From positions 38,470 to 102,469 of the forward strand of contig NZ_AUFR01000009.1 in the NCBI RefSeq assembly GCF_000426605.1: 64,000 nucleotides of DNA. The letters are read 5' to 3'. The notes below the pieces were generated by a model. The model saw only the letters and a program-made list of their open reading frames with translations, ran no database searches and had not been told where the DNA came from. Below are positions 1 to 62,581 of this stretch, piece by piece. Position numbers and translations under genes: made by a program. The stretch's first letter is position 1; every line of letters begins with the position of its first letter. This DNA is from Propionibacterium acidifaciens DSM 21887 (GTDB lineage: Bacteria > Actinomycetota > Actinomycetes > Propionibacteriales > Propionibacteriaceae).

Positions 1-2169
1 GTCATTATTATCGGACGTCAATCCGGCGATGTCCTGCTGCCAGTCATCCGCAACGCTCTTCCAGTCAACGTCTCGCCTCTTCTCCCCTGACCAGACACCC
101 CAATAATCAGGATCGTCAGATTTCGGACGGTACTCCTCCGGAATTTCATCGATTTCGACCAGCACTGGCAGTTCGGAGGCCCATCCGAGCAGTACGGCCT
201 GCCGAGAGGGCAGGGAGGGGAGATCGTGCAGCAAGCCACTCAGACTGTCAGGAAGCAGCCTACTCACCAGTTCTTGATCCTTGTCATTGCTGATTCGATG
301 GAGCAGGAAAGAGTTACACTGGGACAGCACCGTTGGAGAGAGCTCGCTTGGCCGCTGGGACGAGAGAACCATCCCCAAACCGAATTTTCTGCCCTCTCGG
401 GCGATCTTCTCGAAGACCTTGCAGCAGACTGCGGCAACGGATTGATTGTCGGGGTCATCACGATAACGCCTGACGAAGGTGTGCGCCTCTTCCATCACAA
501 GAACCGTCGGCAGGGTCTTCCCACCGTTGAGTCTCCTGTAGCGCTGGAGCGCTTCGAGCGTCACTCGGGCGATGACGGCTGTCACCAAGTGCACTATTTC
601 TGCGGGGACGAGGGAAAGATCGATGATGGAAACAGGGACAGCTGCACTTCCATCGTCCCCGATGTATGACGCGAGCCAGTCTGAAAGGGACTCCTCTGAA
701 ATATTTCCGCCAGAGCCCGCGATCTGCTTCATCCGGGCATCCGAGAGCAGGGCCTTGATTCGTATGAGCATCGTCTCGACATAGTCTGAAACACCCATGA
801 GCTCGGCATTGGCCTCCACGCTGCGCAGCAATTGGTCACCCGTGAAGGGCAAGGGAAGATCAGCATCAATCGGGAGAGCATCGGAATCGCTACCACCGAA
901 TGCTTCGTAAGCCATCTTCGCAGTGCAAAGAAGAATATCAACCTCTTCCTTACTCAGGTTACAATTAGGGTGAGCAGGCTGACGAGAAGTTAACAAGGTG
1001 TTCATATTGTTGGAAAGTGATTCGATCATTTTGACTTCCCACTCCGAGAAAGAGCTCTGGACGGTGAGACCTTCTTTCCACTTCTCAATCATCTCAAAGA
1101 AGCCTTTTGCCTTGGGGAAACCCGACCACGGCGTTCCAGCATTTTTGGCCATTTGGATCAGACTCACGATCGTCCGCAGGTATCTTCTCATCTCCTGCCG
1201 AGAAGAAGTGTTTTCATCAACAGATCCATCCTTGACCGTCCTCAGCGCTTGCACCAAGGTGGGACGTTGGGTCTTCGCTGTCGCCTGGGCGAATGCGCTC
1301 CATTCCGCACTGTTCCAGAGCCAGAGCGGCACACGGAGTTGATCGGCTCCTTCCCCAGTCTCAACGGCGAATCGACGCACCCCTTGTATGTCATCGAACG
1401 CATGCGAGTACTCTCCGTTGGGGTCGAGGATGATGAACCTCGCATTCGGATTCCTCTCATCCCCGCACTCGCGTTGAGCCGCCTCAAGAGACCAGCGGAT
1501 GAGACCGGCGACCGAACAGGATTTTCCGCTTCCCGTGTTCCCCAAGACGGCGAGATGACGACCGAACAGACGATCCGGGTCGATTCTGACCTCAGCGTTC
1601 GCAGCGAGAGGGCTGGTGCCGATACGCACCCGTCGATTCACCCCGGACTCAACGATCGCTCGCAGCTGACGTTGAGTGGGAAGCAGGACCTCATCACCGA
1701 CTGCAGGGTAGGTGCTCATCCCTCGGGTGAAGCTATAGGAATTTTCATTTTCTGGTTCACTGGCTTGTTGAGGCCTATTCATCGGGGTTGGATCACGATC
1801 GCCATCCCCAGGCACAACGTCGTCTGCAGACGCTGCGAATAAGCCTCGTTGCAGTGTACCCAGCGGGTTGAGACTCAGTTTGCGCACCGGGTACGGGAGA
1901 TCAACGAGACCGAAATCCTGCATTCCCCTGCGTTTGGGGAACTGGGAGGGCTGAACCGTGATCCATTGGATCTGGCCCACCATGTAGCCATCACTCGTGC
2001 CGACCAAGACGTAACCGTTGAGACGGGGGAAGGGTCTGGGGATGCCCGTGTTGAGAGCGATGTCCTCTGGCGCTTCGATGTCCAACGAGACTCTGATCTC
2101 ATCCGAGGAGACGAAGTCAACCGTTCCGATGCGCAGGGCACCAGCATAAGCAATCGGTGTTGCACTCAT
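1..2169 (-). CDS. herA: HerA-type hexameric ATPase/translocase, 3' end beyond window
   Basis: The reading frame is open from an ATG at 2169 to the left edge (723 codons, no stop seen), so the C-terminus is missing or nearly complete. Residues 1-90 look like the beta-rich HAS-barrel of HerA proteins. Walker A is GNTGSGKS (residues 210-217) and Walker B is VLVMEEAH (about 556-562), followed by SSQRPSEL as the sensor region. HerA proteins are DNA-pumping hexameric ATPases. Its ATG overlaps the stop of the upstream SIR2 gene (ATGA), which implies translational coupling. SIR2-HerA is a known two-gene anti-phage pair in which HerA assembles with the NAD-consuming SIR2 subunit. Family call secure; a defence role is inferred from the partner and the BREX context. 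Confidence 0.93.
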   Translation of the reverse strand, partial: MSATPIAYAGALRIGTVDFVSSDEIRVSLDIEAPEDIALNTGIPRPFPRLNGYVLVGTSDGYMVGQIQWITVQPSQFPKRRGMQDFGLVDLPYPVRKLSLNPLGTLQRGLFAASADDVVPGDGDRDPTPMNRPQQASEPENENSYSFTRGMSTYPAVGDEVLLPTQRQLRAIVESGVNRRVRIGTSPLAANAEVRIDPDRLFGRHLAVLGNTGSGKSCSVAGLIRWSLEAAQRECGDERNPNARFIILDPNGEYSHAFDDIQGVRRFAVETGEGADQLRVPLWLWNSAEWSAFAQATAKTQRPTLVQALRTVKDGSVDENTSSRQEMRRYLRTIVSLIQMAKNAGTPWSGFPKAKGFFEMIEKWKEGLTVQSSFSEWEVKMIESLSNNMNTLLTSRQPAHPNCNLSKEEVDILLCTAKMAYEAFGGSDSDALPIDADLPLPFTGDQLLRSVEANAELMGVSDYVETMLIRIKALLSDARMKQIAGSGGNISEESLSDWLASYIGDDGSAAVPVSIIDLSLVPAEIVHLVTAVIARVTLEALQRYRRLNGGKTLPTVLVMEEAHTFVRRYRDDPDNQSVAAVCCKVFEKIAREGRKFGLGMVLSSQRPSELSPTVLSQCNSFLLHRISNDKDQELVSRLLPDSLSGLLHDLPSLPSRQAVLLGWASELPVLVEIDEIPEEYRPKSDDPDYWGVWSGEKRRDVDWKSVADDWQQDIAGLTSDNND

Positions 2170-3518
2170 GACTCATCACCCGGCCCGGCCCCCTCCCGGC
2201 CTTTCTCCGCAGAAGGCTCTTCGGTCCCGAATCTCTGGCGGAGGAGCTCTGCCATCCGGAAGGTGGTGCGGTCTATCGCAGGTTTGGGAAGATAATTCTG
2301 TGTAAGCTTCGCGAGGTCAGCCAGATCCGGGCCAACCAGTAGGCTCATCTGCGCGCTTCGACCAATATTTTCATAGAATTTGATGATTCTGTTCGATGCA
2401 TCATCATGCGAGATGATGACCACATGCGTCGATGGGATGGTGAGCATGTCCCGGAGGACTCTGTTGATGTGGTCGTCGCCGAAACTGTACCCGTAAGTGA
2501 CAAGGGTGCTGTTTGGACGGCACAGAGCTCCTGCGAGATCGCGGAACATTTCCACGTAGGGGTACCCGGCGGTCTCCCTGTCCTTGCTCGAGTTCGGATA
2601 GATCATGAGCTGGAAGGCCGAGGCGCCGTTCAGCCCGGGAGCTTCGAGATATGGTTCCAGTGATTCTGCTCCGAACGGCAGACCAACCCGTCTGATGTCT
2701 TCCCCTGTCGTCACCCAGTCCACCGATCCATGCAGCTTGGTGAAATGAGCAACGCCTTCGAGGAATCGTGGTTCTCCTTTGATGCCGGGAGGATTGTAGT
2801 GCATGTCAAGATTCAGTCGTGATGACCGGAACACGGGTGCCAGCGTTCCGACGAAACGGTCCAGCAGATGCATGCCGGCGAGTTCAGCTCCGGCCTCAAT
2901 CAGGCGATCGTAGTTCGTGGTGAAGATGTGAAGACGCTCACGAGGTCCGCCTCTGCCGGCAAAGCTCATCAGGAAGGACACGAGAACATTGAATGCCTGT
3001 TCCCTCTTCTCGCTCACCGCGGTAGCTATCCCACGTTCGCTAGTCAGTATGCTTTGCGCGAACTCATTGATGGTCATGTCGATCTCTGAGCGGAGATCAT
3101 CGGTTCGGTCATGATCCAGTATTTCAAGACCTCGTAGCAGTTCATTGGCCACGCGCAACGCATCCTCGAGGTTCTCCCCGTTCCTCGACATGCGCTCAGC
3201 AGATTCTTTTGCGGCTTTGCTGATCTTGTCTCCACAAGTCTTGAACTTCGGCGTGTTCATCCCCGTTGCAGACTTACCTACTGCAAGGTGATGGACAGCG
3301 TGAGTGAGGCCAGACCCGGCGAGGAGTGACAGATGCTCGGACTGGAACAGTGAGGAGAGCCATGGTTCGATCCTCTTGCGAAGGTCTGGAACGCCAAGGT
3401 TCTCACCGAACCAGGATGACCGATTATCGCTGGTCACCCGAAAGCCATCTTCTCCATTCTGCTTGAACCGGATCGGCTTGGAGTCCTCACGAACCTTGAG
3501 AATGTTCTCAGCAGTCAT
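2166..3518 (-). CDS. SIR2-like NAD-hydrolase domain defence protein
   Basis: 450 residues. SIR2-family signatures are present: an AGSGLT nucleotide loop (67-72), TTNYD with the catalytic-type Asn202, KLHGSVDW with His263, and GYSFGDDHIN (343-352), which is typical of bacterial SIR2-like effector domains. Such proteins deplete NAD when phage infection is sensed. I start at the ATG at 3518 because it overlaps the pglX stop as ATGA; longer starts lie inside pglX. The gene ends in another ATGA overlap with herA. Base composition is lower in GC than brxC. It could act as a HerA-partnered stand-alone module or as an effector wired to BREX; the sequence does not distinguish these. Confidence 0.93.
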   Translation of the reverse strand: MTAENILKVREDSKPIRFKQNGEDGFRVTSDNRSSWFGENLGVPDLRKRIEPWLSSLFQSEHLSLLAGSGLTHAVHHLAVGKSATGMNTPKFKTCGDKISKAAKESAERMSRNGENLEDALRVANELLRGLEILDHDRTDDLRSEIDMTINEFAQSILTSERGIATAVSEKREQAFNVLVSFLMSFAGRGGPRERLHIFTTNYDRLIEAGAELAGMHLLDRFVGTLAPVFRSSRLNLDMHYNPPGIKGEPRFLEGVAHFTKLHGSVDWVTTGEDIRRVGLPFGAESLEPYLEAPGLNGASAFQLMIYPNSSKDRETAGYPYVEMFRDLAGALCRPNSTLVTYGYSFGDDHINRVLRDMLTIPSTHVVIISHDDASNRIIKFYENIGRSAQMSLLVGPDLADLAKLTQNYLPKPAIDRTTFRMAELLRQRFGTEEPSAEKGREGAGPGDES

Positions 3519-6500
3519 TTCTTGCTCTCCTCGGGCTGGAGCGGGTTGACGGGCCATGTCCACGTCTCGACGTCGTGACGTTTCTCCTCGATGGCCTTGA
3601 TTCTGACGAGGGCTTTGCCGAAGCGGAGGTAGTTGACCAGGACGCCGTCGTCCAGGTCAAGATCGAGGTTCCGGGTGGCCAGCGGGTAGAGGATGTCGCG
3701 CTCGTAGTCCTCGCATTCGAGCAGGTCCTTGCGGTACTTGTCGGCCCTCTTGAGGTTCGCACTCCTATCGGATCGTTCCAGTTGGTCGATCTCTGCACGG
3801 AGCTTGGTCTGGAATTCGCGAAGGTACTCGTTGAGCACGGTGTTCAGTGTCGCCGGGGTGTAGCGGTGCAGGTAGATCAGCGCGTTGAAGACGCCCTTGC
3901 CATCGGGGCGCGAGGAGAACATCCAGTAGATCGGGCGGTTCGAGTAGCGCTTGCAGTGGTCCTTGTAGAAGTCCCTCAGGAAGTACCGTCGCAGGGGTTT
4001 CCCGAGAACGGATTCGATGCATCGGACGTTCTCCTCGAGATTCGCCTCCCCGAAGGAGGCCTTGAGGAAGGTTCGGAAGCGGGCGACGATGTCATCCTCG
4101 AACCAGTCGTCCTGTGTCACGGGGATGACGTTGTCGTCGTCCGGCGCGAAGGTGGGCTCTGGTACCCGTGCCACGTAGTCTTGGATCGTCTCGCCCTGAC
4201 TGGCCAGGATGAGCCCGGGTTCATCGAGGCTGTAGCGGCCGAACATGCAGCCCACGGCGTAGGAGATGAGATCGCGGACCGCATCGGCCGCGAACAGCTC
4301 GCGGTATTCAGCCTCGCTACGTTCTTCGCCTTTGGCGGGGGCATAACGGAACCAGGGGTTCGAGGTCAGGGAGACGCGGTTGAGCGGAACCTCGGTCGGC
4401 ACCTCATCCTCCAAGCCGTAGACGCAGGTCCAGTAACGGTTGTTCTCTTCCTCCAGCTCTTGGGCCTCACGGCCAGCACGAGTCGAGTCATTCCACCAAC
4501 ACTCAAGAGCACCCTCGAGAGATTCATTGGGCTGAGTGCACTCCATCAGCGGCGAACCGACGAAGCCCCAAGAGAGCTCATATGAATTCCAGTCCCCACG
4601 AGACAACTCAATAAGACCATCAGCAATTGACGCACTTTTGGAATTATCATCGGGCACGCCGAAGTCAATGATGGGAAGTTCCGCAAGTTGACCGACTTCG
4701 AAGTGCATGGTTGCCGCAAGCGACTCGAGAATCCTCTGAGTAGCAGTCGAATTCAACAGCGCAAGCCTCTCAAGATCCGAGCCTAAAATGACTGGCGCCA
4801 CATCGTTCGGAATGAATCCTTCACTCGTAAAACGGAAAGAAGGCTCACCGCTCGACACTCGAGACCACGAGATCGCCGGCTTGAAGTAGGAGTCGATGTT
4901 CTGCGGGCGAGACTTCTGCTTCCCTCCCGCGTCACGGAACTCTTGAATCTCGGCGCCGTCATGCTCCCAGTTCACCACGTACTCCTGGTTGCCCCACCAC
5001 TTGCGGAAGGCGCCGCCCTTGAGGTGGGGGAACCACTTCGCACCGCTGGCGGCGGCCTCCTCGCGGGATGCGGCGGTGAAGCACGACTTGTCCCGGGAGA
5101 CCTCGAACCAGTGGCGCAGGAAACGCAAGTTGTCTCCAGTCTGGAGACCAACCCTCGGGGCGGCGATCTCGCCCAATGGGCTGCCCTCGGCGAAGACCCT
5201 CAGCATGGCGGGCGAGAGCCAGTAGGCGATGCGAGCGCCTGGGACACTGGCGAGTTCCCGGGCTGTCAAGATGAAGCGGGGAGCGCTCCCCCTCACCGCC
5301 TCTGCGAGCAGTTCCTCTTTCTCCGCTTCGGAACTCCCCTCGACCAGCCTGAGGTAGCAGGACTGTCTCTCAGGAGAGCGCCCCTGCTCGAGGATGAAGG
5401 CAGTGGTGGAGACCACCTCGCCCCCGATGGAGTCGAAGGCCCTCTCCCCCAGGTGCGCCATCGTCACCGGCGGGGCCGAGCTCAGGATGCGGCGTCGCAG
5501 CTCCTCGAAGGATCCGAGGAACATCCAGCCCTGCATCGTGATCATCGCGACCAGCCCGTGGCCGCCCTCGGCCAGCGCGAGGCACCGTTCGATGAAGGCG
5601 GCGAAGAGATCGGCCTTGGCCGCCGGGTGGTGCGTCTTCCCCCAGTCCGACAGGACCGCATCCATGTTCTTGCTGCCCATGTACGGCGGATTGGTCACCA
5701 CGACGGCGTACTCGCGGGCGAGGTACTCGGCCTGGCACAGCACCTGTTCGGCGCGTTCTCTCAGGTTCGCACCGACCAGAGTGTCAGAGTCGAGATCTTC
5801 CGCCTGCGCCTTGGCAACTGCCAGTGTCTCGGAGTCGGGGCTGATCAGTGAGCCCAGCATGTCAGCATGGCGGAAGCACTGCCAGAAGTCCTCCTCGGCC
5901 CGGCGGTCGCCGCCGGCGCTGACGAGGCGGTCCAGCTCGTCCGGGGTGAACTCGGCCGACTCGATGACACGGATCCGGGGCTGGACGTGCGTGCGCAGGA
6001 AGCGGCGCTGCCGGGCCCGGGCCTTCATCATGAGCGCGAACGCCGCGAGCGCCCCGGCGCGGCCGTCGATCTCGGTGCCGCGCAGATTGTGGGTGAGGAT
6101 CAGCTCGGGGATCTCGGAGGGCGCGTAGCCCTCCTCCTCGTAGATCTCGTAGAGCAGGTCGAAGGCGTAGGTGAGCATGTGCCCCGAACCGCAGGCCGGG
6201 TCCATCACCGTCAGCTCCTCGGGCCGCTCGATCCGCAGGAAGTCCTCCTCGCCGGTCGGCTCGATGTAGTACTCCATCCGACCGCCCAGGGCCGACTCGG
6301 GGTGGTTGAGCAGCCACAGACGGCCAACAGAGTTCTGCACCAGATAGCGGACGATCCAGTCCGGGGTGAAGAGCTGGGTCGCGGCGGGGATCTCGTCGGG
6401 GCCGGCCTTCTTGTTCCTCTTGAAGCCGGCGAAGACCTCGTTCTTGCGTTCGGAGATGTAGAACTGGTAGAGCCAGCCGATCACCTCGACGTCCTGGCAG

Positions 6501-25109: not shown

Positions 25110-25551
25110 GGCCCCTCCCGGTCGCCGCGCGCCCGTGCCGCGGTGGTCAGCACCGAGCCTAGTGGAGGGAGGTGCCGGGGCGGGTGGCGACCTCGGACGG
25201 AGGCACGGCCCCGGATCACTGGCACGAATCCGTCGTGCCCGCCGTGATGCCAATGGCCTCTCCCGGTTGGACCATCGGCCACCGCTGGATCCGCGCGGCC
25301 GTCTGGCCGGTATGTTCTCTCCGCCCATCACCTTGTCGGTGGCCACGGGGACGGTCCAGCGATCGAAGTGCCACCTGCGCGAGACCGCCAAGGACGAATG
25401 ATCACCGATCGGGGTCGGACGGACCGCCGGAGACACTCGTTCCTCATGCCCAAGAACGGCCCAACGACAGAAAGGAATCTGGTCAGCTCCCCGGTGAACG
25501 AGTCTCGACGGATCCTGTGGAGACGGCCGGCGAATCAGCAGGATCGTACCG
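25110..25551. other. 442-bp intergenic stretch at left edge of AT-richer island
   Basis: No convincing gene on either strand. Composition changes here from the very high GC of glnE to the lower GC of the MFS gene, so this is the likely left boundary of the transferred cluster. I see no tRNA, integrase or clear direct repeat at the boundary. Confidence 0.5.
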
Positions 25552-26949
25552 TCATCCCGTTCCTCCGTCGACCGGATCACGACTCCTGGATTGCGATCTG
25601 AGCAGCATGGCAGCGAACGCCAGTGCAGCAAGGATCGAAATTTCCTGGAAGAAGAGCGCTTCGACGTAGTCGGAGGGAGTGGCCCCAAGCGTGCCGGCGT
25701 TCGACATCATGGATCCAGTGATGGCGACACCGACCGCCCCGAACAGCTGCTGGGCGGTGGTGAGGATCGCCGAGCCCGCCCCCGCGTCCCGCACCGGAAG
25801 ATGACGCAGCACGACTCCGGTCACGATGGGAAGAATGGAGCCGTTCCCGAATCCGAACACGAACAGCGGTGCGAGAAACGCCCAGCCACGGGCAGCACCG
25901 AGGGACACCAGGACCATGACGATTCCGAGTCCCGCAGCACTGGTTGCGGAGCCGGCAACGAGCACCAGAGGAGCACTGATCGCACGCATGATCCCGGGAC
26001 CGAGCACTGAGGCCACGACGAACCCGATGCCGATCGGGACGAAGAACAACCCGGACTGCCAAGAGGTGAGATGCACGATGGACTGGAAGTAAAGCCCCAG
26101 AAGGAAGAAGAAAGGAATTATTCCTATGTACAGGGCACCGTTCAGGAAAACACCGAGCACGAACCCGGACGACTTGAAGAGCCGGTAGGGTATGAGCGGC
26201 ACCGATCCTCTCACGGCTGCAGCATGTTCGTGATATATGAACAGCCCGATGAACGTTCCCCCCGCCGCAAGCAGCACGACCCCCGCAGGAAACCGTTCCA
26301 GCCGGGTCGGGTCGAGCAGGGGGACGAAGAGCAGCACAACCGAAGCCGCGAAAAGTATCACACCGAGTGTGTCCATCCTCACCGCGGGCGCTCCTTGGTC
26401 GTGGACCAGCCAGCGCCCACACCCCAGCCAAGCGAGCAAGCACACCGGAACATTGATCAGGAAAATCGGCCGCCAGCCCAGACCCAGGACATCGAGACTC
26501 GGGATCATGCCACCGAAGACCTGTCCCATGACCTGACCGAGACCCAACGAAATCCCGAACCAGGACAGCGCCCGTGTGCGTTCCTCCCCAAGATAATTCA
26601 CCCTGATCAGGGCCAGGACCTGCGGGACCATGACTGCCCCCGACAGCCCCTGGCCAAGGCGCGCCGCAACCATTTGGGTCGCGGTCCCCGCCAAGCCACA
26701 GCACAGAGAGGTCATCGCAAACATCATCAGCCCAGTCCGGTACACTCTGCGTCGGCCGAACCTGTCACCGATCCTGCCTCCCGTGATCAGCCCCAGCCCG
26801 TACACGAAGGCATAACCACTGATCACCGCCTCCAACTGCACTGACGATGCGCCAAGATCCCGACCTATCTGATAGGCAGACACGTTTATCACGAACTGAT
26901 CAAAAATGGACAGGAAGGCACCAACGAGCACAAAAAGAAGTCCTGTCAT
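25552..26949 (-). CDS. MFS exporter, DHA2-like, of the CitD-type cluster
   Basis: 465 residues from the ATG at 26949 (MTGLLFVLVGAF), with about 14 hydrophobic segments. Motif A-like GGRIGDRFGRRRVYRTG follows TM2, and LGFGNG-type glycine-rich helices occur near the C-terminus, as in the EmrB/QacA drug and metabolite exporters. It is the last gene of the minus-strand cluster and is a natural candidate to export the product or give self-resistance. A 323-bp gap separates it from citG, so it may have its own promoter. GTG at 27006 is a weaker alternative start. Confidence 0.9.
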   Translation of the reverse strand: MTGLLFVLVGAFLSIFDQFVINVSAYQIGRDLGASSVQLEAVISGYAFVYGLGLITGGRIGDRFGRRRVYRTGLMMFAMTSLCCGLAGTATQMVAARLGQGLSGAVMVPQVLALIRVNYLGEERTRALSWFGISLGLGQVMGQVFGGMIPSLDVLGLGWRPIFLINVPVCLLAWLGCGRWLVHDQGAPAVRMDTLGVILFAASVVLLFVPLLDPTRLERFPAGVVLLAAGGTFIGLFIYHEHAAAVRGSVPLIPYRLFKSSGFVLGVFLNGALYIGIIPFFFLLGLYFQSIVHLTSWQSGLFFVPIGIGFVVASVLGPGIMRAISAPLVLVAGSATSAAGLGIVMVLVSLGAARGWAFLAPLFVFGFGNGSILPIVTGVVLRHLPVRDAGAGSAILTTAQQLFGAVGVAITGSMMSNAGTLGATPSDYVEALFFQEISILAALAFAAMLLRSQSRSRDPVDGGTG

Positions 26950-27272
26950 CTTGCCTCTACTCTCTGACAGAAGAATCCGCTCCCATGGAAAACGCCAAGA
27001 AACCACCGATTTTATTTTACGTCATTTCCATTTCAGTCAAAGCTCTGAAAACTTGTCTCCGTCATCGACGGATGGGCTCCACATCCCTTGCGGACACACT
27101 TCTAGAAGATTGTTCACAACAACAGTAGACCTGGCTACCACTGGGGACCATGTTTTTCCGCCGAGCCTCCATGAATAGATCCTCGAGCGACACGGAAGCG
27201 CACCAATTCTGTGGTGAGCCCCTGAACCTCTTCCCCCCTTGATTATTTCATGATGACAGCCCAAGAAGAGGG
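26950..27272. other. Gap between MFS gene and citG
   Basis: AT-rich sequence without a convincing gene on either strand. It probably holds the promoter and leader of the MFS gene; no clear hairpin terminator with a T-run was found. Confidence 0.4.
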
Positions 27273-28247
27273 TCAGATCCAGAAAGATTGGCCATCGACT
27301 CCCTCGCATAGAGAAGAATAATTCTTCTTGCAAGCCACACGGCCATGACTCGACCACAAATGAAGATACAGGCTGACCGCAGTGAGATCAGCCGCTCCCC
27401 CCGGACTGATCCGCAATCGAGTAAACTCACCATTTGCACGTCGGATGAGTCGTTTCCCTCGCTTCGTGAAAATACTTCCATTGGCCAAAATGTCATTTGC
27501 ACGATCCTGCACGAGAGCTAGCCTCTTAGGATCATTGACACGGTTGAGAACCGTCGAATCCTGCACCACGGCCATGAGAGAAATCAACGTATGCGTCAAA
27601 GCCGCCCCGATGCGCACACCACGATTTAATGATAGCTCAAGAGCAGGAATTCCATTGTTCAACACACTGGAGAAACCCGAGATTACTTCTCCGCGGATCC
27701 CCTGCACACCGAACATCCTCCAAGCTCTCAACCCACCCGATAGATGATCAACGGAGTCACTGTCATCATCGGAGAAGATCATGTCAGAAAGCAGAGCAGG
27801 AAACGCCAATTGCCGCGCCACAAGACATACTTGCGAAGGATTGAGGAAAGGCTCACGATCCACAACAATCCGCGCAGCAGCCGCCAAGAGAACTCCGAGA
27901 AAAATTCCTCCTTTGTGGGTATTGACTCCACCAGTGACCCTGAACATCACCTGTTCGCCATATTTCCCAATGCTACGTAGTTCTGCGAACAAGCTTGAGC
28001 AAGAATTTATAGCCTGCCCCACATCAAGGTTTGCGCACAGCAAAGCCGCATCGCGAAAAGTATCTCGAAGACTGCACGCGCTACGCAGAAGCGTGAAGAC
28101 ATCCATATCCGTGTGGCTGGCCGTTTGTGACGCTGTGACAAGTCCTGGCTTTGACTCTGCAGCGGCTTCCGCGGCAAGCGCATAAACAATATCCTCAGCG
28201 AGGAACTCAGCCGACTCATCGGTGGCCATTGATGTTGACAGGCTCAT
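27273..28247 (-). CDS. citG: CitG-like triphosphoribosyl-dephospho-CoA synthase
   Basis: 324 residues carrying the CitG landmarks in order: KPGLV (33-37), HTDMD (45-49), TGGVNTHKG (105-113), GIRGEVISGF, LISLMAVVQDSTVLNR and RLRISPGGAADL. CitG condenses ATP and dephospho-CoA to the precursor of the citrate-lyase prosthetic group. In canonical loci it serves CitX and CitD; both homologues lie in this same operon. Its ATG overlaps the stop of the YrdC-SDR fusion (ATGA). Composition is clearly AT-richer than the chromosome. Confidence 0.92.
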   Translation of the reverse strand: MSLSTSMATDESAEFLAEDIVYALAAEAAAESKPGLVTASQTASHTDMDVFTLLRSACSLRDTFRDAALLCANLDVGQAINSCSSLFAELRSIGKYGEQVMFRVTGGVNTHKGGIFLGVLLAAAARIVVDREPFLNPSQVCLVARQLAFPALLSDMIFSDDDSDSVDHLSGGLRAWRMFGVQGIRGEVISGFSSVLNNGIPALELSLNRGVRIGAALTHTLISLMAVVQDSTVLNRVNDPKRLALVQDRANDILANGSIFTKRGKRLIRRANGEFTRLRISPGGAADLTAVSLYLHLWSSHGRVACKKNYSSLCEGVDGQSFWI

Positions 28248-29677
28248 AAGCAGAGCAAACCACCATCAACATGAAGGGCTGTCCCAGTCACGTAACTGCT
28301 CAACGGGGATGCGAGAAAACAAACAGCATCGATGATATCAAAAATATCAACTGCTCTCCCCAGCGGTATGCCAGCAAGAACATCATGATTCCCCGCAACG
28401 AACAGATCCTCAGTCATCGGCGTACGGATGAGTCCAGGGCAAACGGCATTCACTCGTATGCCGCTGGAAGCCAAATGACGAGCCGCCGAACGCGTTAAAG
28501 GCAACAGTGCCCCCTTGCTGGTCTCATACGCCACTCCCGTATAAGGGCGACTGATTTTCCCGAACACTGATGAAACATTCACGATCGATGAATGCATCCC
28601 CATGTATGGCGCAGCAGCACGAATTCCATAGAAGGCGGCCGATGTATTGACAGCAAAACTGAGCTGCCAATCGTGCCGGTCAACCTCATCAAGCTGCCTT
28701 GACTCAAAATACCCTGCGTTATTTATAAGTAGATCCAATCCCCCCCACTTTTTCAGAACATGTTTCACGGCATCACCCCACTGCACAGGATCCGTCGCAT
28801 CCAGCACACGGAACTCCACATCGAAGTCTTGAGCAATCAGTTCCTCTGCCACTGATTCTCCGGTTTCGCTCTTGTCCGTGACCAATGTGCGCACGCCTGA
28901 CTGAGCAAGAACGCGTACAAGCTCAGAACCACGTCCACGCGCAGCCCCAGTGACCAGCGCCGTCATTCCAGCAAGAGTCGGGTGCCAAGTTGCAACGCTC
29001 TGCTGCCGACGCTTGAGCCTTGTTTTGTAGTCTTTCGTTCGGTCAACCAGATCCGGAAGGTGTTTCCGCACATCCGTCAGCGCGATCCGACCGGCCCTGA
29101 CAAGCAGTGGGGTTCGTCCAGTGAGGTCGACAATGGTATTACCAGAATCAGAAACCGCAGGGCCTCCGTCAACCATCAGAGAAACCTTATCCCCTAGCTG
29201 ATCAGCCGCCTGACGGAACGTGACCAACTGCTCACCCTGACCTGACAGATTCGCTGAAGTACAAACACCCCAGCCGCCGATTTTTTGCAACAATTCTACA
29301 AATACTGGATTTCGATGACAGGCAACGGCCACGGTAGGCAATCCCGCCGTGATATAATCAGGAACTTTCGAACGACGCTTGGGAAGAATAAGCGTAAGCC
29401 CTCCAGGCCACAGATCTTCCGCCAGAGCTTTTACGCGATCATCCACGAGCGCAACTTGATCCAACAAACCCGGGCCGGACAAGAAGATCGTCAACGGAAA
29501 ATCTGAGTCCCGTTTCTTGATCTCATATATTCGGGCGGACCCAGCTTCCTGCGCAGGAGAAGCAAGCAACGTGTAGTGCGTATCCGTCGGGGATATCACT
29601 ACTTCACCGCGCACAAGGGCCTCAGCCGCCAGACTGATGTCCTGCTGACTTGTTCCAACCACACGCCTAGGACTCAC
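28244..29677 (-). CDS. YrdC/Sua5-domain and short-chain dehydrogenase fusion
   Basis: 477 residues from a GTG at 29677, chosen because GAGGAG lies about 9 bp upstream. Residues 8-205 are a YrdC/Sua5 fold: PTDTHYTLL (30-38), KKRDSDFPL (54-62) and SAN.SG (141-146). That family makes carbamoyl-type adenylates such as threonylcarbamoyl-AMP. Residues 237-477 are an SDR with TGAARGRG (243-250), NNAG (319-322), catalytic Ser369 or Ser370, and YETSK (384-388). The start overlaps the end of citX by 11 bp and the stop overlaps citG. A fusion of these two domains is unusual, and its reaction is unknown. Confidence 0.88.
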   Translation of the reverse strand: MSPRRVVGTSQQDISLAAEALVRGEVVISPTDTHYTLLASPAQEAGSARIYEIKKRDSDFPLTIFLSGPGLLDQVALVDDRVKALAEDLWPGGLTLILPKRRSKVPDYITAGLPTVAVACHRNPVFVELLQKIGGWGVCTSANLSGQGEQLVTFRQAADQLGDKVSLMVDGGPAVSDSGNTIVDLTGRTPLLVRAGRIALTDVRKHLPDLVDRTKDYKTRLKRRQQSVATWHPTLAGMTALVTGAARGRGSELVRVLAQSGVRTLVTDKSETGESVAEELIAQDFDVEFRVLDATDPVQWGDAVKHVLKKWGGLDLLINNAGYFESRQLDEVDRHDWQLSFAVNTSAAFYGIRAAAPYMGMHSSIVNVSSVFGKISRPYTGVAYETSKGALLPLTRSAARHLASSGIRVNAVCPGLIRTPMTEDLFVAGNHDVLAGIPLGRAVDIFDIIDAVCFLASPLSSYVTGTALHVDGGLLCL

Positions 29678-30206
29678 TACTGTTCTCTCCTCGCATCTTC
29701 CCATTCGGACGCGCCCTATGAAGAATCGCTCTTCCAATCAGGGAGATCCATATTTTGACTATTGTTCTCGGACGAGAGTGCCTGCTCTTCACCACGCACT
29801 CTTTTGACGGTGACCCACACACATAGCAGGAACGAGGAGGAAGACCAAGAGAATGCCTGGTGACAGGAATGACACCATCATAAACATCCACATCGACCAA
29901 GAAACCATACCATAGGTCCTGCTCCAAACGCACTGCCATCCGTTTCGTCTCCAACGGTCCAGGCGAAAACTGCAAGATGTACGTGCCACAGACCCGGTGA
30001 ACAGCCCCATATTCACCATCGAGTCGACAGCGCATGGCTCTCACAACACGAAGGCAAAAAGAGTCGATGATTGGCGACGGAAGCGCGCCGTGAGGCACTC
30101 GCCGGCCAACAACCAGAACACCCGCTCCTGGTTGCCTCCCCATATCGCGAATCTTCCGCGAGACGCAGTCACGTCGTTTCAACTCGTGATCATATGCCCA
30201 CTTCAC
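29667..30206 (-). CDS. citX: CitX-like holo-carrier-protein synthase
   Basis: 179 residues, the usual CitX length. Matching features are KRRDCVSRK near the start, the LEQDLWYGFLVDVDVYDG segment, and the hallmark GLPPRSCYVCG followed by ECVVKSRHS. CitX transfers the triphosphoribosyl-dephospho-CoA arm made by CitG onto a serine of CitD. The start is a GTG at 30206; an in-frame TGA lies two codons upstream, so the frame cannot be longer. It overlaps the downstream fusion gene. Similarity to CitX is by motif only but is specific. Confidence 0.87.
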   Translation of the reverse strand: MKWAYDHELKRRDCVSRKIRDMGRQPGAGVLVVGRRVPHGALPSPIIDSFCLRVVRAMRCRLDGEYGAVHRVCGTYILQFSPGPLETKRMAVRLEQDLWYGFLVDVDVYDGVIPVTRHSLGLPPRSCYVCGSPSKECVVKSRHSRPRTIVKIWISLIGRAILHRARPNGKMRGENSSES

Positions 30207-30384
30207 CGGTCACCAGTTCTGATTTCATTCGTAACAGCCATCAATAAAACGCCTTCTCGTAGGTGTCATTGCTTGTAGGTCAAGACACCCGCAGCCCCTT
30301 GCCCGAGGTATCCATTGACACACCCTGAGTGCTTCTGGGAAACCAAATACTCCACGACCCGCCTGAGAGGAGCCCCGCCACAAA

Positions 30385-30582
30385 TCACCCGAACCGGTGA
30401 AGGGCCGACCACGAGGACTCTGTGGAGTTCGATAGGTTCTTCTGGTCCATGACGGTAAAACCATCGCCCCCACCCCACAGAATGTCCTCACTTAGTCTTA
30501 CCCTCGCACCCTGCATCGCCTCAAGTGGAGAGAATGCCCCCTCTTGGACAGGACACACATGAAGCCGGTCCTTGCGCAGCGT
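30385..30582 (-). other. In-frame continuation of citE after TAG
   Basis: Directly after the citE TAG the same frame runs 65 codons to a TGA at 30385-30387. It encodes AFSPLEAMQGAR, then GGGDGFTVMDQKNL. This matches the layout of the C-terminal tail of CitE/HpcH proteins (x-P-x-E...AR...G-x-G...K-x-L), as seen in the intact homologue at 45607-46470. Together the two parts make 296 codons, a normal CitE length. The remaining 30207-30384 shows only short frames and no recognisable gene. Confidence 0.6.
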
Positions 30583-31275
30583 CTACGAACAGGCGTCGGA
30601 AAATGCCTCGCGCGTAACAGGAATCTGCGCAGGGTGGATAACACTCTTCCCATGAAAACCAAGACTCGCGGCTCTCAATGCGTCACCGAACACGAGATCT
30701 CGCGAATGATAATCGGAGAATACAGTGTCATATGCGGGCAGTCCACATTCACGGGCAACAGCGACCAACTGACGTTTCGCCTCCCACAAGGACTCAAGGG
30801 ACTCACTTTTGATGTCAGCCAGATAGTCTCCACCACCAAATGTCAGTGCCTTCACCTGCGGAAAAGTTTCGACAATCCTTGTGATATCACTAAAAATCTC
30901 CCTGTTCTCGATCATCAATTCTAGTCGGACAGAACTTTGATCCACGAATTCCTTTGTCCACGAAAAGAATCGCGATACATCCTCAAATCTCCGCGCCCCC
31001 GGAAGACGAATCGCACGCAAACCGAGCGGAACAAGTGCACTCAGGTCATCATACAGAGCAGTACCACGAGGTTGATTCACCCGAATTATGAGATTCTCGA
31101 CGCCTGGATGAGCCCGCAGGAACTCTCTGGCAACATCTCGTGCGCTATCTTTTTCGTCACTTGGCACAGAGTCTTCCAAATCGACAACAACTTCGTCGAC
31201 AGATACTGTCAGTGCATGCTCAATGTACCCCGGCTTCGTGGCTGAGACATATAAAGAGATGACGTGGTCAGTCAT
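30583..31275 (-). CDS. CitE-like lyase/aldolase (HpcH/HpaI), ends at in-frame TAG
   Basis: 230 residues before a TAG; typical CitE proteins have about 290-300. Features are VVVDLEDSVP (29-38), an Arg in RVNQPR (65), the acidic IEN (Glu123), GGGDYLAD (Asp150) and GFHGKSVIHPAQ (207-217). These form the Mg- and thioester-binding barrel that cleaves or forms the C-C bond in citryl-carrier. The start overlaps the CitD-like gene by 8 bp. The conserved tail follows after the stop codon, so the gene is truncated, read through or mutated. Without CitF its thioester substrate must come from another route, probably the adjacent ligase. Confidence 0.85.
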   Translation of the reverse strand: MTDHVISLYVSATKPGYIEHALTVSVDEVVVDLEDSVPSDEKDSARDVAREFLRAHPGVENLIIRVNQPRGTALYDDLSALVPLGLRAIRLPGARRFEDVSRFFSWTKEFVDQSSVRLELMIENREIFSDITRIVETFPQVKALTFGGGDYLADIKSESLESLWEAKRQLVAVARECGLPAYDTVFSDYHSRDLVFGDALRAASLGFHGKSVIHPAQIPVTREAFSDACS

Positions 31276-31537
31276 GAGGAGCCCCCTGCTCCCTCCAACG
31301 CCTGAAGGCTGTGGCAAGCCGTGCTCTCACAGCCCATTCCGACGCTGCGTTATCAAGAATCTTGATCCGAACATTATCAATGCCCCGCTGAGTCAAAGTC
31401 TCGTTGACCAGTTCACGAATCAGTCGTTCGGCCTGGTCACCGAGCGGACTGATGACCCTCACTGAGACGGACGAGCTTGATCGAATCTCGACAAGAACGT
31501 CTCCAGACAGCTGGCTTCCTGCATTCACAGCACTCAT
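31268..31537 (-). CDS. CitD-like acyl carrier protein
   Basis: 89 residues; citrate lyase CitD is about 98. The N-terminal AGSQLSGDVLVEI aligns with AGTLESSDV of CitD and places Ser11 where CitD Ser14 carries the triphosphoribosyl-dephospho-CoA arm. The C-terminal NVRIKILDNAASEWAVRARL matches the CitD pattern that ends in an invariant-looking RARLEAA region. The ATG at 31537 lies 2 bp after the stop of the ligase gene, with AGGAG inside that gene. I infer that this is the carrier charged by the ligase and modified by CitX/CitG. Confidence 0.85.
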   Translation of the reverse strand: MSAVNAGSQLSGDVLVEIRSSSSVSVRVISPLGDQAERLIRELVNETLTQRGIDNVRIKILDNAASEWAVRARLATAFRRWREQGAPHD

Positions 31538-31539
31538 CG

Positions 31540-32724
31540 TCAGCGGGCTCCTTCCAGCACAGCGCGCAATCCGTGCGGCCAGCGTGCAGGATTCGTGCCG
31601 TGCTGCATGACAGCCGCCCATGCCCATCGCTCCAGTCCGAAAGCCGTACAACCTGTCCATGCGGTTCCACCATCACTCAACATGATGTTCGAAGTCGAAC
31701 CGAAGAAAGTCCCGCTGATGTTGAACGATGCACAGGCTGAATCTGCATCCCGATAGGGCAGATCAAGGCGAAGCTCAAACTTCGCGTCCGGGTCGAGCTC
31801 GCACTCAGGACGCTCACCGCGGAGGAAGAAGGGATCATGGCCAGCTTCGACGACCCCGCTCAAGCCCCACTGTTCGACTAGTCGGAGAACACGTTCCTGT
31901 GTCTCGTCTCGACAGTCACGAACGAACTGACGCGAACCCAAGTAAACAATTTCTCGCATTTGAAAGTCCCAGAGACGCTCCAACGTCGACGCATTACGCC
32001 CTTCGTACCGATAGCAGGTACCACGCGTGGTCACAAGAGTGTTGCCCTCCAAAGTTTTTTCTTCATTCGCCATGTAAACATGGAAACACGCCGCTGGCGC
32101 GAGGACATGCGTACGTTCCTGAAAACCAGAATAATCACGCGGCGGCCGACCACGATGATTCACCGTGTAGTCGCTGAATTTTTCAGCAGCATCCACATCC
32201 GTCTGCATCATCGTCGGATACATGATGTTCTGCGGAAAAGCGTCGAAGTAATGACACTTCTCGAAAAACTCGATGGGCAGCAACGTCGAGTATTCACGTT
32301 CACAGGCCCCCATACTTGTTCCAAGACGGCGAAACTCATCATCGAATCCTCTTGCGAGTGCCGTCATCAATTCTCCGATCTCCGTGTCCGCGAGGCCGAG
32401 TCGTCGTACTAACCCTGCATCCGCCGCACCCGCCGGGTCAGCCCCCCTCACATCTTCACCTGACGACTCGATCCCAACACGTCGTGGCACCGCATCAATG
32501 ACATTTGTCGACTGAGCGAACCGTGCCAGCGTCATCCTCACCTTTCGATCGATCTCGGATTCCTCATTCTCTGCGAGGCTCCAGACATGCACACGCCGAC
32601 GCTCGACTGGATCAATGTAGAAGCGAGCGATGTTAGGACTCGCGAAGTAGAGCCAGTAGGCGGCCTCTGAGAGGCAGTCGGCAGCGAGCGGTGCATCCAG
32701 CACCACGTCCATCTCGAACACCAT
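31540..32724 (-). CDS. Class II aaRS-like amino acid:carrier protein ligase
   Basis: 394 residues. The catalytic core resembles atypical seryl-tRNA synthetases but lacks a tRNA-binding arm, as in the amino acid:[carrier protein] ligases. Those enzymes adenylate Gly or Ala and load it on a phosphopantetheine thiol. Visible signatures are APAACFHVY with Cys213, GTCYRYEGRN (motif 2), WDFQMREIVYLG with Glu258, SFNISGTFFG, and GCTAFGLERWAWA (motif 3) with Cys359. Cys/Glu/Cys are the expected zinc ligands for the amino-acid amine. It is the first gene of the operon, divergent from the MocR gene, and stands where citC would stand in a citrate lyase locus. Confidence 0.87.
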   Translation of the reverse strand: MVFEMDVVLDAPLAADCLSEAAYWLYFASPNIARFYIDPVERRRVHVWSLAENEESEIDRKVRMTLARFAQSTNVIDAVPRRVGIESSGEDVRGADPAGAADAGLVRRLGLADTEIGELMTALARGFDDEFRRLGTSMGACEREYSTLLPIEFFEKCHYFDAFPQNIMYPTMMQTDVDAAEKFSDYTVNHRGRPPRDYSGFQERTHVLAPAACFHVYMANEEKTLEGNTLVTTRGTCYRYEGRNASTLERLWDFQMREIVYLGSRQFVRDCRDETQERVLRLVEQWGLSGVVEAGHDPFFLRGERPECELDPDAKFELRLDLPYRDADSACASFNISGTFFGSTSNIMLSDGGTAWTGCTAFGLERWAWAAVMQHGTNPARWPHGLRAVLEGAR

Positions 32725-32745
32725 GTCCCCCCATACTGTGACAGA

Positions 32746-32766
32746 TCAGATAAAATCTGATACAAT
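32746..32766. promoter_or_regulatory. Operator-like palindrome and -10 box between divergent genes
   Basis: TCAGATAAAATCTGA (32746-32760) is a perfect 6-bp-arm palindrome. It abuts TACAAT (32761-32766), which with the preceding TG makes an extended -10 (TGATACAAT) for the plus strand. The box lies 7 bp before the GTG at 32774, fitting a leaderless regulator transcript. The palindrome also sits about 22 bp upstream of the ligase start on the minus strand. Likely site of MocR autoregulation and control of the operon. Confidence 0.6.
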
Positions 32767-32773
32767 ACAATCC

Positions 32774-34102
32774 GTGTTCGCCCTTGACAGTACCAGCATC
32801 CGTTCCGCTCGACAATTGGTCCATCTCATCGAGGACGCGATCGCCACTGGCCAGTGCCAGCCGGGCGAGCGGCTCCCCGCCGTGCGTGAGCTCGCATCGC
32901 TCGCGGACCTGAGCCCTGTGACGGTCTCAGCAGCCATCCGCGACCTGCGCCAGCGCGGTCTCCTCGTCACGGAGGGCCGGCGCGGAACTTTCGTGTCCAC
33001 GGCCCGGGCCCATCCGCCCAGCCGTCTGACGATCGACCGACCCGCAGAGTCAGTGGACCTGTCCAGCGGCCATCCCGATTACACCCTCCTGCCTGCGCTC
33101 CATGACACGCCCGTGTCCCTTCCTGCCCGCCCGGACAGCGCAACTCGGCTGGCCGAACTGGAAGAGCTCTTCAGACAGGGATTCGCCGCTGATGATGTGA
33201 CCGCCGAGCACATCGTCTTCACCCACGGAGCCATGGAAGCGGTCGGAGGACTCCTGAGATCGGCCCTCTCCCAAGGCGATGCCGTCGCAGTGGAGGATCC
33301 GGGATACCCGCACGCGCATCTCCTCGTGGATCTTCTCGGCATGAGGAAGACCCCCATCGCGCTCGACGATGAGGGGATCTCCCCGGAATCGCTCCGTCAG
33401 GCGATCCGAGCAGGCGCGAAGGCCGTCATCATCACCGCACGCTCGCAGAACCCCACAGGGGTCGGGACGACACCGCAGCGCCATGCGGCGCTGCACGCCA
33501 TCATCTCCGAGCATCCGGACCTGCTGGTCATCGAGGACGACTACCTCGCGTATCTGACCAGTGCACCGCTGAGGACACTGACCGGCATCACGACCCGGTG
33601 GGCCTGCATCCGGTCGTTGTCCAAGAGTCACGGTCCGGATCTGAGGTTCGCGGCCCTGTCGGCTGATCCTGTGACCGCCGACCGCTTGGACAGAACGCTG
33701 CTCATCACGTCGGGCTGGATTCCTCGGACCATGCAGGAACTCGTCCTCTCCCTCATGACGGGCCAGCACACGCTCCACGCCCTCAGGAATGCCGCACGCA
33801 CCTATGACAGAAGACGACACATCTTTCTTCAGACGCTCCGCAGACACGGGATCCCGGTCACCGGGACGAACACCACGGGGCTCCATGTGTGGATACCGAC
33901 CGATGACGAGGCGCGTCTGTGCACGGACCTGCTCGCCAAGCACTGGAGCGTCGCACCAGGCTCACTGTTCAGAATCAACAGCGAACCCGCCATCCGAGTG
34001 ACCACGACTTGCCTGCTGTCCGATCAGGCGGAGGCTCTCGCCGCAGATCTCGCCGCGATCCGCGCGCACAGCGCCATGGACATCGGCTGCAAGGCCCCAT
34101 GA
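32774..34102 (+). CDS. MocR/GntR-type PLP-dependent regulator
   Basis: 442 residues from the GTG at 32774 (an ATG at 32723 would add 17 residues but would lie upstream of the predicted -10). The N-terminus is a GntR winged helix (LPAVRELASLADLSPVTVSAAI, GLLVTEGRRGTFV). From about residue 100 there is an aminotransferase class I domain with ITARSQNPTG and the PLP lysine in RSLSKSHGPDLR. MocR regulators sense amines or amino acids through bound PLP and control an adjacent divergent operon. That fits a pathway that activates an amino acid. GC content is higher than in the operon it faces. Confidence 0.92.
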   Translation: MFALDSTSIRSARQLVHLIEDAIATGQCQPGERLPAVRELASLADLSPVTVSAAIRDLRQRGLLVTEGRRGTFVSTARAHPPSRLTIDRPAESVDLSSGHPDYTLLPALHDTPVSLPARPDSATRLAELEELFRQGFAADDVTAEHIVFTHGAMEAVGGLLRSALSQGDAVAVEDPGYPHAHLLVDLLGMRKTPIALDDEGISPESLRQAIRAGAKAVIITARSQNPTGVGTTPQRHAALHAIISEHPDLLVIEDDYLAYLTSAPLRTLTGITTRWACIRSLSKSHGPDLRFAALSADPVTADRLDRTLLITSGWIPRTMQELVLSLMTGQHTLHALRNAARTYDRRRHIFLQTLRRHGIPVTGTNTTGLHVWIPTDDEARLCTDLLAKHWSVAPGSLFRINSEPAIRVTTTCLLSDQAEALAADLAAIRAHSAMDIGCKAP

Positions 34103-34203
34103 CCATCCCGCATGGCCGGCGGCGGATGGAGCAGCGGGTAGCCTCAATGCCGTCAGCAGGCCCCGATGGGCACCATCGACACGGGCAGCGGAAGGAGGAC
34201 ACC

Positions 34204-38462: not shown

Positions 38463-38502
38463 CGGGACCCGCAGCCGGGCGTCCGGCGACGGGGCCCGGT
38501 CC

Positions 38503-61840: not shown

Positions 61841-62581
61841 TCATGAAACAAAATCGTTTCTGGTTTCGCGGAGTGGGAGGTGTTCGAAGCCGTGGTCGAC
61901 GGTGCGTCCGGTGACGTGTGAGACGAATGCGCCGAAGGTTTCTTCGGGGGTCTCGCGCTGGATGTTCGCGATGTTGCTCTTGGCCGTGTTCCGGACGTGC
62001 CCGGCCGGGTTGTGGTCGGGCGCGTACGGCGGCAGATGAATCGGCGTGATGCGCTCCAACAGCCGGCCCGGCTCGTGGAGGCCGGTCAACGCTCTCGCAT
62101 GGTGGAATCGGGCGTCGTCCAGGACGACCACGATCTTGCCGGCCTCGGTTTCGCGTTGGAGTCGTTCCAGGGCGAGGATCGTCTGCTCGGTGTTCTGGTT
62201 CCCCTCGATCGGGTACAGTTTGACTTTTTTGCTGGTCGGGGAGAGGGCGCCGAAGAAGGACTGGGACGTCTTCTTCCGGTCCACGGACCGGCCTGGTGCG
62301 CTGCCCCCTTTTGGGGGCTGCATGCGGCGGGTCCAGGCCTCGTGCTCGGGGCGGGCCTCGTCTGCGGTGTAGACCTCCCAGCCGGCGTCCAACAGGGCAT
62401 TGACTTGGGTTTTCACTTCGGTCATGCGTCTGGTGACGGCTTTCTCGTTGCGGTGCTCGTCGAACGGGTCGGGCGGCTCGAGGCTCGGCCCGCACAGGGG
62501 CGGGAGCAGCTGGTGGGAGGGGCCCGACTGGTACCGGCCGTCGGACAGGATCTTCACGACGTCACCGCAGGGCCGGGACAT
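61841..62581 (-). CDS. IS630 transposase, catalytic part (orfB)
   Basis: About 246 codons from an ATG at 62581. DDE-type landmarks are WEVYTADEARPEHE, VVVLDDARFHHA and YAPDHNPAGHVRN. The last normally reads D-x-NP-x-E-H in this family, so the third catalytic acid is replaced by Gly. The frame continues that of orfA only after a one-base shift at CTGCGGTGACGTC. The element is therefore probably inactive, or relies on frameshifting. Confidence 0.75.
   Translation of the reverse strand: MSRPCGDVVKILSDGRYQSGPSHQLLPPLCGPSLEPPDPFDEHRNEKAVTRRMTEVKTQVNALLDAGWEVYTADEARPEHEAWTRRMQPPKGGSAPGRSVDRKKTSQSFFGALSPTSKKVKLYPIEGNQNTEQTILALERLQRETEAGKIVVVLDDARFHHARALTGLHEPGRLLERITPIHLPPYAPDHNPAGHVRNTAKSNIANIQRETPEETFGAFVSHVTGRTVDHGFEHLPLRETRNDFVS

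Follow-up and report, generated by a model that had tools for sequence, protein, structure and literature searches.

A gene cluster of Propionibacterium acidifaciens that may place a small amino acid on a CitD-type carrier protein

The genome sequence of Propionibacterium acidifaciens DSM 21887 carries, on contig NZ_AUFR01000009.1, a gene cluster that raises the question of what a CitD-type carrier protein is for when its gene stands next to that of a class II aminoacyl-transfer RNA (tRNA) synthetase-like ligase. The stretch analysed, here called the window, comprises 64,000 nt (positions 38,470 to 102,469 of the contig), and coordinates given below are window positions unless a locus is named. 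The cluster lies on the minus strand (25552-32724) and is transcribed in the order ligase, CitD, CitE-like enzyme, CitX, a fusion of YrdC with a short-chain dehydrogenase/reductase (SDR), CitG and an exporter of the major facilitator superfamily (MFS), with a MocR-type regulator gene divergent from the ligase gene (Table 1). A previous interpretation made from the sequence alone (the sequence-only reading) had named these genes and proposed that they activate an amino acid on CitD, and every one of them was found at its position with Pfam and NCBIfam models. The answer favoured here, which we regard as evenly poised, is that the ligase loads a small alpha-amino acid on CitD, and that the CitE-like enzyme and the YrdC-SDR fusion build a small product for export.

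The ligase matched the NCBIfam models for amino acid--[acyl-carrier-protein] ligase (4e-36; 124.5 bits, cut-off 357) and archaeal-type serine--tRNA ligase (1e-37), both below the curated cut-offs, and its Pfam match was marginal (0.06). C213, E258 and C359 are invariant in all 18 ligase sequences compared; these are presumably zinc ligands, aligning with C131/E176/C279 of Bll0957 and with the corresponding sites of the archaeal seryl-tRNA synthetase (SerRS) of M. barkeri. The nearest folds in PDB to an AlphaFold model of the ligase (predicted local distance difference test, pLDDT, 84.6) were archaeal-type SerRS and the Gly:carrier ligase Bll0957; compared with carrier ligases of the Bll0957 type, the window's ligase is longer by some 110 residues at its N-terminus. 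As the zinc ligands and the core of amino acid:carrier-protein ligases are kept, the class first assigned to this protein is upheld. A Cys/Glu/Cys site is typical for alpha-amino-acid ligases, and the predicted substrate is a small alpha-amino acid, most likely serine or glycine. Glycine is the amino acid of the nearest solved carrier ligase (Bll0957). Serine is favoured for the family at large, because relatives of similar length in two annotated Streptomyces plasmid clusters of non-ribosomal peptide synthetase (NRPS) and polyketide synthase genes (loci L090 and L092; 33.9% across 97% of the query and 36.5% across 73%) sit in what we take to be the layout for conversion of carrier-bound serine to an aminomalonyl unit. 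The corresponding set of acyl-CoA (coenzyme A) dehydrogenase, 3-hydroxyacyl dehydrogenase and phosphopantetheine carrier was absent among the eight island proteins scanned with Pfam.

The carrier beside the ligase is of the citrate lyase type, scoring 41 bits with the TIGR01608 citD model and 17 bits with the malonate-decarboxylase carrier model. The motifs SGDV and DNAASEW-VRARL are kept in all eight listed CitD sequences, two of which are this species' own (the window's and a near-copy), and the serine of the SGD motif is taken to be the predicted attachment site of the prosthetic group. CitG and CitX make and attach the triphosphoribosyl-dephospho-CoA arm of CitD, and both are encoded in the window and in the second locus found, that of Streptomyces huiliensis. 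The window CitX scored 117 against its S. huiliensis counterpart (mean of shuffled sequences 31.5; none of 2000 shuffles as high). To our knowledge, this arm occurs only in citrate lyase, citramalate lyase and malonate decarboxylase. The ligase and CitD genes adjoin in both loci read as DNA, the gap being 2 nt in the window and no more than about 15 nt in S. huiliensis. A tree was built from 116 ligases (17 of 91 database matches, the window's ligase and the best match per locus, after removal of the second copies L001, L093 and L102 of the window and S. huiliensis ligases), and the CitD-linked type fell in one clade of ten with a support of 0.999, five of the ten having an unknown context.

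This arrangement bears on the view that the ligase charges some other acceptor (a phosphopantetheine carrier encoded elsewhere, free CoA or a small molecule), CitD and CitE performing a separate acyl step and both activities feeding one product. The ligase relatives of L090 and L092 do adjoin phosphopantetheine carriers, and PDB holds Bll0957 with CoA; the adjacency of the ligase and CitD genes in both loci and the single clade of CitD-linked ligases speak against it, as does the Pfam scan of the eight island proteins, which found no PP-binding carrier and left the CitD type as the only one. We consider this alternative unlikely.

The six core genes were found in unchanged order in S. huiliensis (locus L010): ligase, CitD, CitE, CitX, YrdC-SDR and CitG, then a UbiD gene. 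Identities between the window and S. huiliensis proteins are 51% for the ligase, 47% for CitD, 52% for CitE, 32% for CitX, 55% for YrdC-SDR and 43% for CitG, and this recurrence is more than chance. S. huiliensis was the only genome matching the other core genes in the DNA around the best 80 of 367 ligase relatives, which were collected by a profile scan of 84,980 species genomes. The set was present in 1 of 392 Streptomyces genomes and 1 of 394 genomes at family level, in both cases S. huiliensis itself, with only the four best first-look candidates scored per genome; seven further genomes of the Streptomyces sample, with 34-37% identity, also passed 1e-50 and were left out of this count. Within the window's family the system was carried by 1 of 198 genomes, the window's own, and a CitD search of the plasmid collection gave no match.

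Database proteins extend the picture by way of contigs of identical listed length, from which co-location was deduced. The ligase and the YrdC-SDR fusion would share contigs in an uncultured Propionibacterium (66462), Streptomyces sp. bgisy100 (197639) and URMC 126 (15705), with CitD also on the same-length contig of URMC 126 under a locus tag next to that of the ligase; CitD and YrdC-SDR would share a 411234-base contig in Streptomyces sp. NPDC005931. CitD alone was among the listed matches for S. pactum, S. collinus and Streptomyces sp. NPDC001922. The genome named uncultured Propionibacterium holds a ligase relative of 59% identity. The protein-database search for the ligase was confined to the 7995 candidates with most words in common, so that absence from its list means little.

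Other members of the ligase family were seen in different surroundings. Downstream of Chloroflexi ligases of the same family (L012, L017, L023, L038, L041 and L060) lie, as judged by eye, genes for a GNAT acetyltransferase and an AAC(3)-like protein, which may mark another uncharacterised amino-acid pathway; a pairing of Chloroflexi ligases with CitD, suggested by weak profile matches (0.032 and 0.11), was rejected when the downstream frames were read by eye as GNAT acetyltransferases. Ligases of Paenibacillus and Tumebacillus (L073, 10917-13072; L087, 11354-13492) lie near DltD-/MBOAT-like polymer-modifying genes, again by eye. The window's genome has a second, partial ligase match (L009, contig C15, 41862-42446; 36% over residues 195-390).

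In S. huiliensis, the UbiD gene that follows the set is one of three in the genome; a search of the window's genome gave no UbiD. Among solved structures, the S. huiliensis enzyme is nearest to a UbiD-like decarboxylase (7abn) and to P. aeruginosa PA0254 (428 bits), but matches to ferulic-acid decarboxylases reach 371 bits. The NCBIfam model that fits it best, at 438 bits and below cut-off, is that of the bagremycin/ferroverdin enzyme BagN/FevL. PA0254 is, we assume, a pyrrole-2-carboxylate decarboxylase, an activity that would suit a five-membered heterocyclic acid. Across about 1 kb from the operon, a divergent locus (L105, 358-10578, on contig C14 of genome G096) encodes a two-module NRPS, with two stretches each of adenylation (A), condensation (C) and carrier domains, an Orn/Lys/Arg (OKR) decarboxylase and a formyltransferase. 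On account of these neighbours the operon could be thought to supply a precursor of a non-ribosomal peptide. No NRPS is encoded among the eight island genes of the window, so that the NRPS lies outside the conserved core, and the island has an exporter and a regulator of its own; we regard the NRPS explanation as quite unlikely.

The presence of CitD, CitE, CitX and CitG families together suggests in the first place a catabolic lyase of the citrate lyase or malonate decarboxylase type, in which CitD carries an acyl group, CitE cleaves an acid and the ligase replaces charging by CitC and CitF. CitF and the malonate-decarboxylase alpha subunit MdcA were each found in neither of the two genomes (the window's and S. 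huiliensis), the CitF search being positive in 3 of 14 control genomes, including E. coli. No CitC was detected in the window's whole genome as assembled, for which the claim of the sequence-only reading that CitF and CitC are missing thus holds. S. huiliensis has one partial CitC match (model positions 9-66 of 182; 22.3 bits, cut-off 20.9) on another contig. That reading had looked to homologous clusters, which might have included CitF and CitC consistently; the one such cluster readable as DNA, in S. huiliensis, contains neither. A CitD-family member occurs exactly once in each of the two genomes and in none of three sister species, and only 4 of 394 genomes of the class have one: the window's and three others, where it stands beside CitF (L118) or MdcA (L119 and L120). 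As CitF and MdcA were not found in either carrier genome, the cluster is taken to be neither a citrate lyase nor a malonate decarboxylase, the former as had been proposed. The Cys/Glu/Cys site of the ligase, which is of the alpha-amino-acid type, the transporter, which by family match is of the efflux type, and the YrdC-SDR fusion, which has no place in a lyase, likewise make a lyase function decidedly improbable.

The CitE-like enzyme of this set is shortened. R65, E123 and D150, which presumably form the site for metal and substrate in the CitE/HpcH aldolase-lyase superfamily, are kept in the window and S. huiliensis proteins on alignment with an ordinary CitF-linked CitE; both proteins end about 50 residues early, without the C-terminal segment holding GGKMIDAP. 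The best of five models built from a 3-sequence alignment (pLDDT 86.7; the lowest reached 70.9) displays a barrel with all eight strands, and its nearest folds are those of acyl-CoA and malyl-CoA lyases; the enzyme probably still enolises a thioester. Of the CitE-like lyase announced earlier, the family assignment thus stands and the usual C-terminal segment is lacking. In Pseudomonas sp. P482 a CitE-like gene next to an SDR gene, without CitF and CitD, and the SDR gene itself are both needed for antibacterial activity (PMC4880745), which shows that CitE-like enzymes can have roles outside citrate lyase.

In the YrdC-SDR fusion the catalytic tetrad K63/R65/S150/N152 is kept in all eight listed fusions, the window's included, and the substrate pocket is changed. 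Residues were counted in the best 120 of 488 YrdC matches (8 fusions and 112 others). All eight fusions have P(T/S)DTHYT, whereas among the 112 others PTETVYG was found in 105, PTDTVYG in 3 and no pattern match in 4. At the positions of Sua5 P59/N62/H67 the fusions show D/F/F (7; in the window D66/F69/F74) or E/F/F (1), against P/N/H in 104 of the 112, with the pattern lacking in 7 and T/G/F in 1. In Sua5 structures the hydroxyl of threonine is bound by His67, and Asn62 contacts the ribose or pyrophosphate (PMC10321239). Judged from these residues, the domain has very likely retained the ability to form an N-carboxy-adenylate, and its amine substrate is probably other than threonine. An N-carboxy-aminoacyl-AMP (adenosine monophosphate) synthase of the Sua5/TsaC type with an altered pocket is more likely than a carbamoyl-phosphate enzyme. 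Threonine, the normal substrate of YrdC, is a beta-hydroxy-alpha-amino acid. In the SDR domain, N353, S379, Y393 and K397 are assumed to be the catalytic residues and D277, an invariant Asp, to mark the position typical of nicotinamide adenine dinucleotide (NAD)-dependent members; since this NAD-type residue is invariant, oxidation of a hydroxyl is likelier than the reduction originally assigned.

The surroundings of the cluster were compared with a sister species of the same genus (G002, locus L121). There, glnE and the SCP_3-like gene are direct neighbours; the nucleotide match to G002 ends at window position 25167 and starts again at 34480, and at protein level the right-hand open reading frame matches from its residue 86. 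As the flanking genes adjoin there and the island is absent, the whole set together with its regulator is a single insertion of about 9 kb in comparison with G002, the one sister species used, the other two sister genomes being without a close match to the flanking gene. The G+C content is 50-56% in the six core genes, 61% in the exporter, 65% in the regulator and 74% in the flanks, and horizontal acquisition of the gene set is likely. That it is a decaying, non-functional remnant, as the short CitE, the 373-nt empty stretch and the foreign composition might suggest, is very improbable, as all eight genes are open, CitE ends at the same point in S. huiliensis, the motifs are kept and the uncultured Propionibacterium has the ligase relative of 59% identity.

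The route that we propose can be written in six steps. CitG would make and CitX attach the triphosphoribosyl-dephospho-CoA arm on CitD, after which the ligase would form an aminoacyl-AMP and move the amino acid to the thiol of the arm, in place of charging by CitF and CitC; to these two steps we give roughly equal chances of being right or wrong. The CitE-like enzyme, whose family acts on thioesters of the CoA type, would then make or break a C-C bond at the alpha-carbon of the aminoacyl thioester. In one variant it would join glycyl-S-CitD to a 2-oxo acid or an aldehyde, and the result would be a beta-hydroxy-alpha-amino acid, the substrate class of threonine, to which serine itself also belongs. 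The YrdC domain would N-carboxylate and adenylate this beta-hydroxy-alpha-amino acid, and the NAD-type SDR would oxidise the beta-hydroxyl, attack of the beta-oxygen closing the ring to a cyclic carbamate (an oxazolidinone or oxazolone). As written, these three central steps are unlikely. Finally, the MFS protein would export the product under control of the operon by the MocR regulator, and in S. huiliensis the neighbouring UbiD may decarboxylate it. A bolder and rather speculative version, which would amount to a new pathway class, has CitD as a protein-bound CoA charged with glycine or serine, a lid-less CitE as an aldol enzyme, and a neofunctionalised Sua5-dehydrogenase that adds bicarbonate to the amine and oxidises the beta-hydroxyl, the outcome being a cyclic carbamate or a related heterocyclic amino-acid antibiotic or antimetabolite. 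The sequence-only reading is accordingly supported in part: the gene set is conserved, a search of the window's genome gave none of CitF, CitC and MdcA, and the ligase keeps its core, while the loading, the amino acid, the order of steps and the product are proposals.

Several observations weigh against loading of an amino acid on CitD and the steps after it. The complete set has been read as DNA in two loci only and is rare. CitX is the weakest family match of the set (5e-14), and the 373 nt before its gene are unexplained. The ligase pocket residues S333 and N335 are common to Bll0957 and M. kandleri SerRS and do not separate serine from glycine. The chemistry of the CitE-like enzyme may differ, because the C-terminal segment of ordinary CitE is lacking. 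We know of no precedent for a carrier ligase that loads CitD. Carrier ligases load 4'-phosphopantetheine linked to the carrier, according to a review (PMC9437257). Among single-domain TsaC proteins, too, the Sua5-specific positions vary (PMC10321239), so that the altered pocket is by itself no proof of a new substrate. With three UbiD genes in S. huiliensis and none found in the window's genome, the UbiD step is neither common to both loci nor decisive, and no shared end product follows from it.

The features of the island are collected in Table 1. The operon is tight except for the 373-nt stretch before CitX; in S. huiliensis the CitE and CitX genes overlap. The in-frame stretch that follows the CitE stop was considered as the lost CitE C-terminus (score 19, shuffled mean 20.9; no related family match) and as the CitX N-terminus (score 21, shuffled mean 22.0), and was rejected as both. 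For the palindrome between the divergent ligase and MocR genes, 68 bp were searched, in which chance alone predicts about 0.26 palindromes with six-base arms. On the plus strand, a promoter-like site (32738-32766) would suit a MocR start at the GTG at 32773; such sites are no commoner than chance, promoter-like (6, with 3.8 expected) and terminator-like sites (11, with 7.9 expected) occurring in the island in chance numbers. Elsewhere in the window, a SIR2-like domain protein, possibly a defence gene, lies in another low-GC stretch (2166-3563; GC 0.57), and a DDE_3 transposase (61841-62689) in a low-GC stretch towards the right end.

Table 1 Features of the island and candidate serine-loading relatives of its ligase. 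Positions are those of the window, except where a locus is named.
Feature	Position	Strand	Basis
Whole inserted island	25168-34200, right edge approximate (between 34103 and ~34216)		Comparison with sister species G002 (L121)
MFS exporter, EmrB/DHA2-type	25552-27006	-	PF07690 2.5e-40; TIGR00711 174 bits, below cut-off 230
CitG/MdcB-like triphosphoribosyl-dephospho-CoA synthase, 324 aa	27273-28247	-	PF01874 6e-58; TIGR03132 208 bits, below cut-off 282
YrdC(TsaC/Sua5)-SDR fusion, 486 aa, one frame	28244-29704	-	Pfam YrdC 2e-40 and SDR 3e-57
CitX-like prosthetic-group transferase, GTG start, 179 aa	29667-30206	-	PF03802 5e-14
Stretch without convincing gene, 373 nt, between CitE and CitX	30210-30582		No similarity to CitE C-terminus or CitX
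Short CitE-like C-C lyase, 230 aa, complete barrel, without usual C-terminal segment	30583-31275	-	PF03328 (HpcH_HpaI) 9e-29
CitD-type carrier, 89 aa, SGD motif	31268-31537	-	PF06857 3.6e-14; SGDV kept
Class II aminoacyl-tRNA synthetase-like amino acid:carrier-protein ligase, 394 aa	31540-32724	-	NCBIfam, invariant columns (n=18), AlphaFold
MocR-type (PtsJ-like) regulator, true start possibly GTG 32773	32723-34102	+	GntR and aminotransferase (Pfam); PtsJ model 289 bits, below cut-off 573
Palindrome ATCAGAT-AAA-ATCTGAT, candidate operator, between divergent ligase and MocR genes	32745-32761		Sequence search
Streptomyces plasmid-cluster ligase relatives, candidate serine loaders for aminomalonyl units	L090 14992-16191; L092 14704-15897		Beside PP-binding protein, acyl-CoA dehydrogenase and 3-hydroxyacyl dehydrogenase

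No pathway with this gene set was found among the top-ranked papers of the open-access literature searched for the pathway or its parts, most subscription journals being outside that scope, and the route is likely undescribed. If amino acids are indeed placed on the arm of CitD, cells would have a further way to hold an activated amino acid besides phosphopantetheine carriers and tRNA, CoA-type lyases would gain access to amino-acid enolates, and a tRNA-modification enzyme would have been taken over for making small molecules. For genome mining, the gene set offers a ready signature.

The cluster can be set beside several known systems. Citrate lyase (CitCDEFXG) shares the CitD, CitE, CitX and CitG families, but neither CitF nor CitC was detected in the window's genome, and CitE is shortened. 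Malonate decarboxylase (Mdc) has in common the CitG/MdcB-like synthase and the type of carrier; MdcA was not detected here, and the window carrier scores higher with the citD model. The CitE-like gene beside an SDR gene recalls the Pseudomonas sp. P482 pair, whose gene list holds neither a CitD carrier nor an aminoacyl-tRNA synthetase-like ligase (PMC4880745). With the TsaC/Sua5 threonylcarbamoyl-AMP synthases the fusion shares the YrdC domain and the K-R-S-N tetrad, and it differs from them by the SDR domain, the change of PTETVYG to P(T/S)DTHYT and that of P59/N62/H67 to D or E/F/F. In the Streptomyces clusters of L090 and L092, a ligase relative of about the same length also stands next to a carrier and dehydrogenases; unlike the window, these clusters have a phosphopantetheine carrier, an acyltransferase and ketosynthase-like genes, and a phmmer comparison with the DNA covered there gave no match for CitD, CitE, CitX, CitG or YrdC. 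Finally, the window ligase differs from the amino acid:[carrier protein] ligases (Bll0957 of Bradyrhizobium and relatives of archaeal-type SerRS) in that it adjoins a CitD-type and not a phosphopantetheine carrier, and is like them in its class II core, its Cys/Glu/Cys site and its fold.

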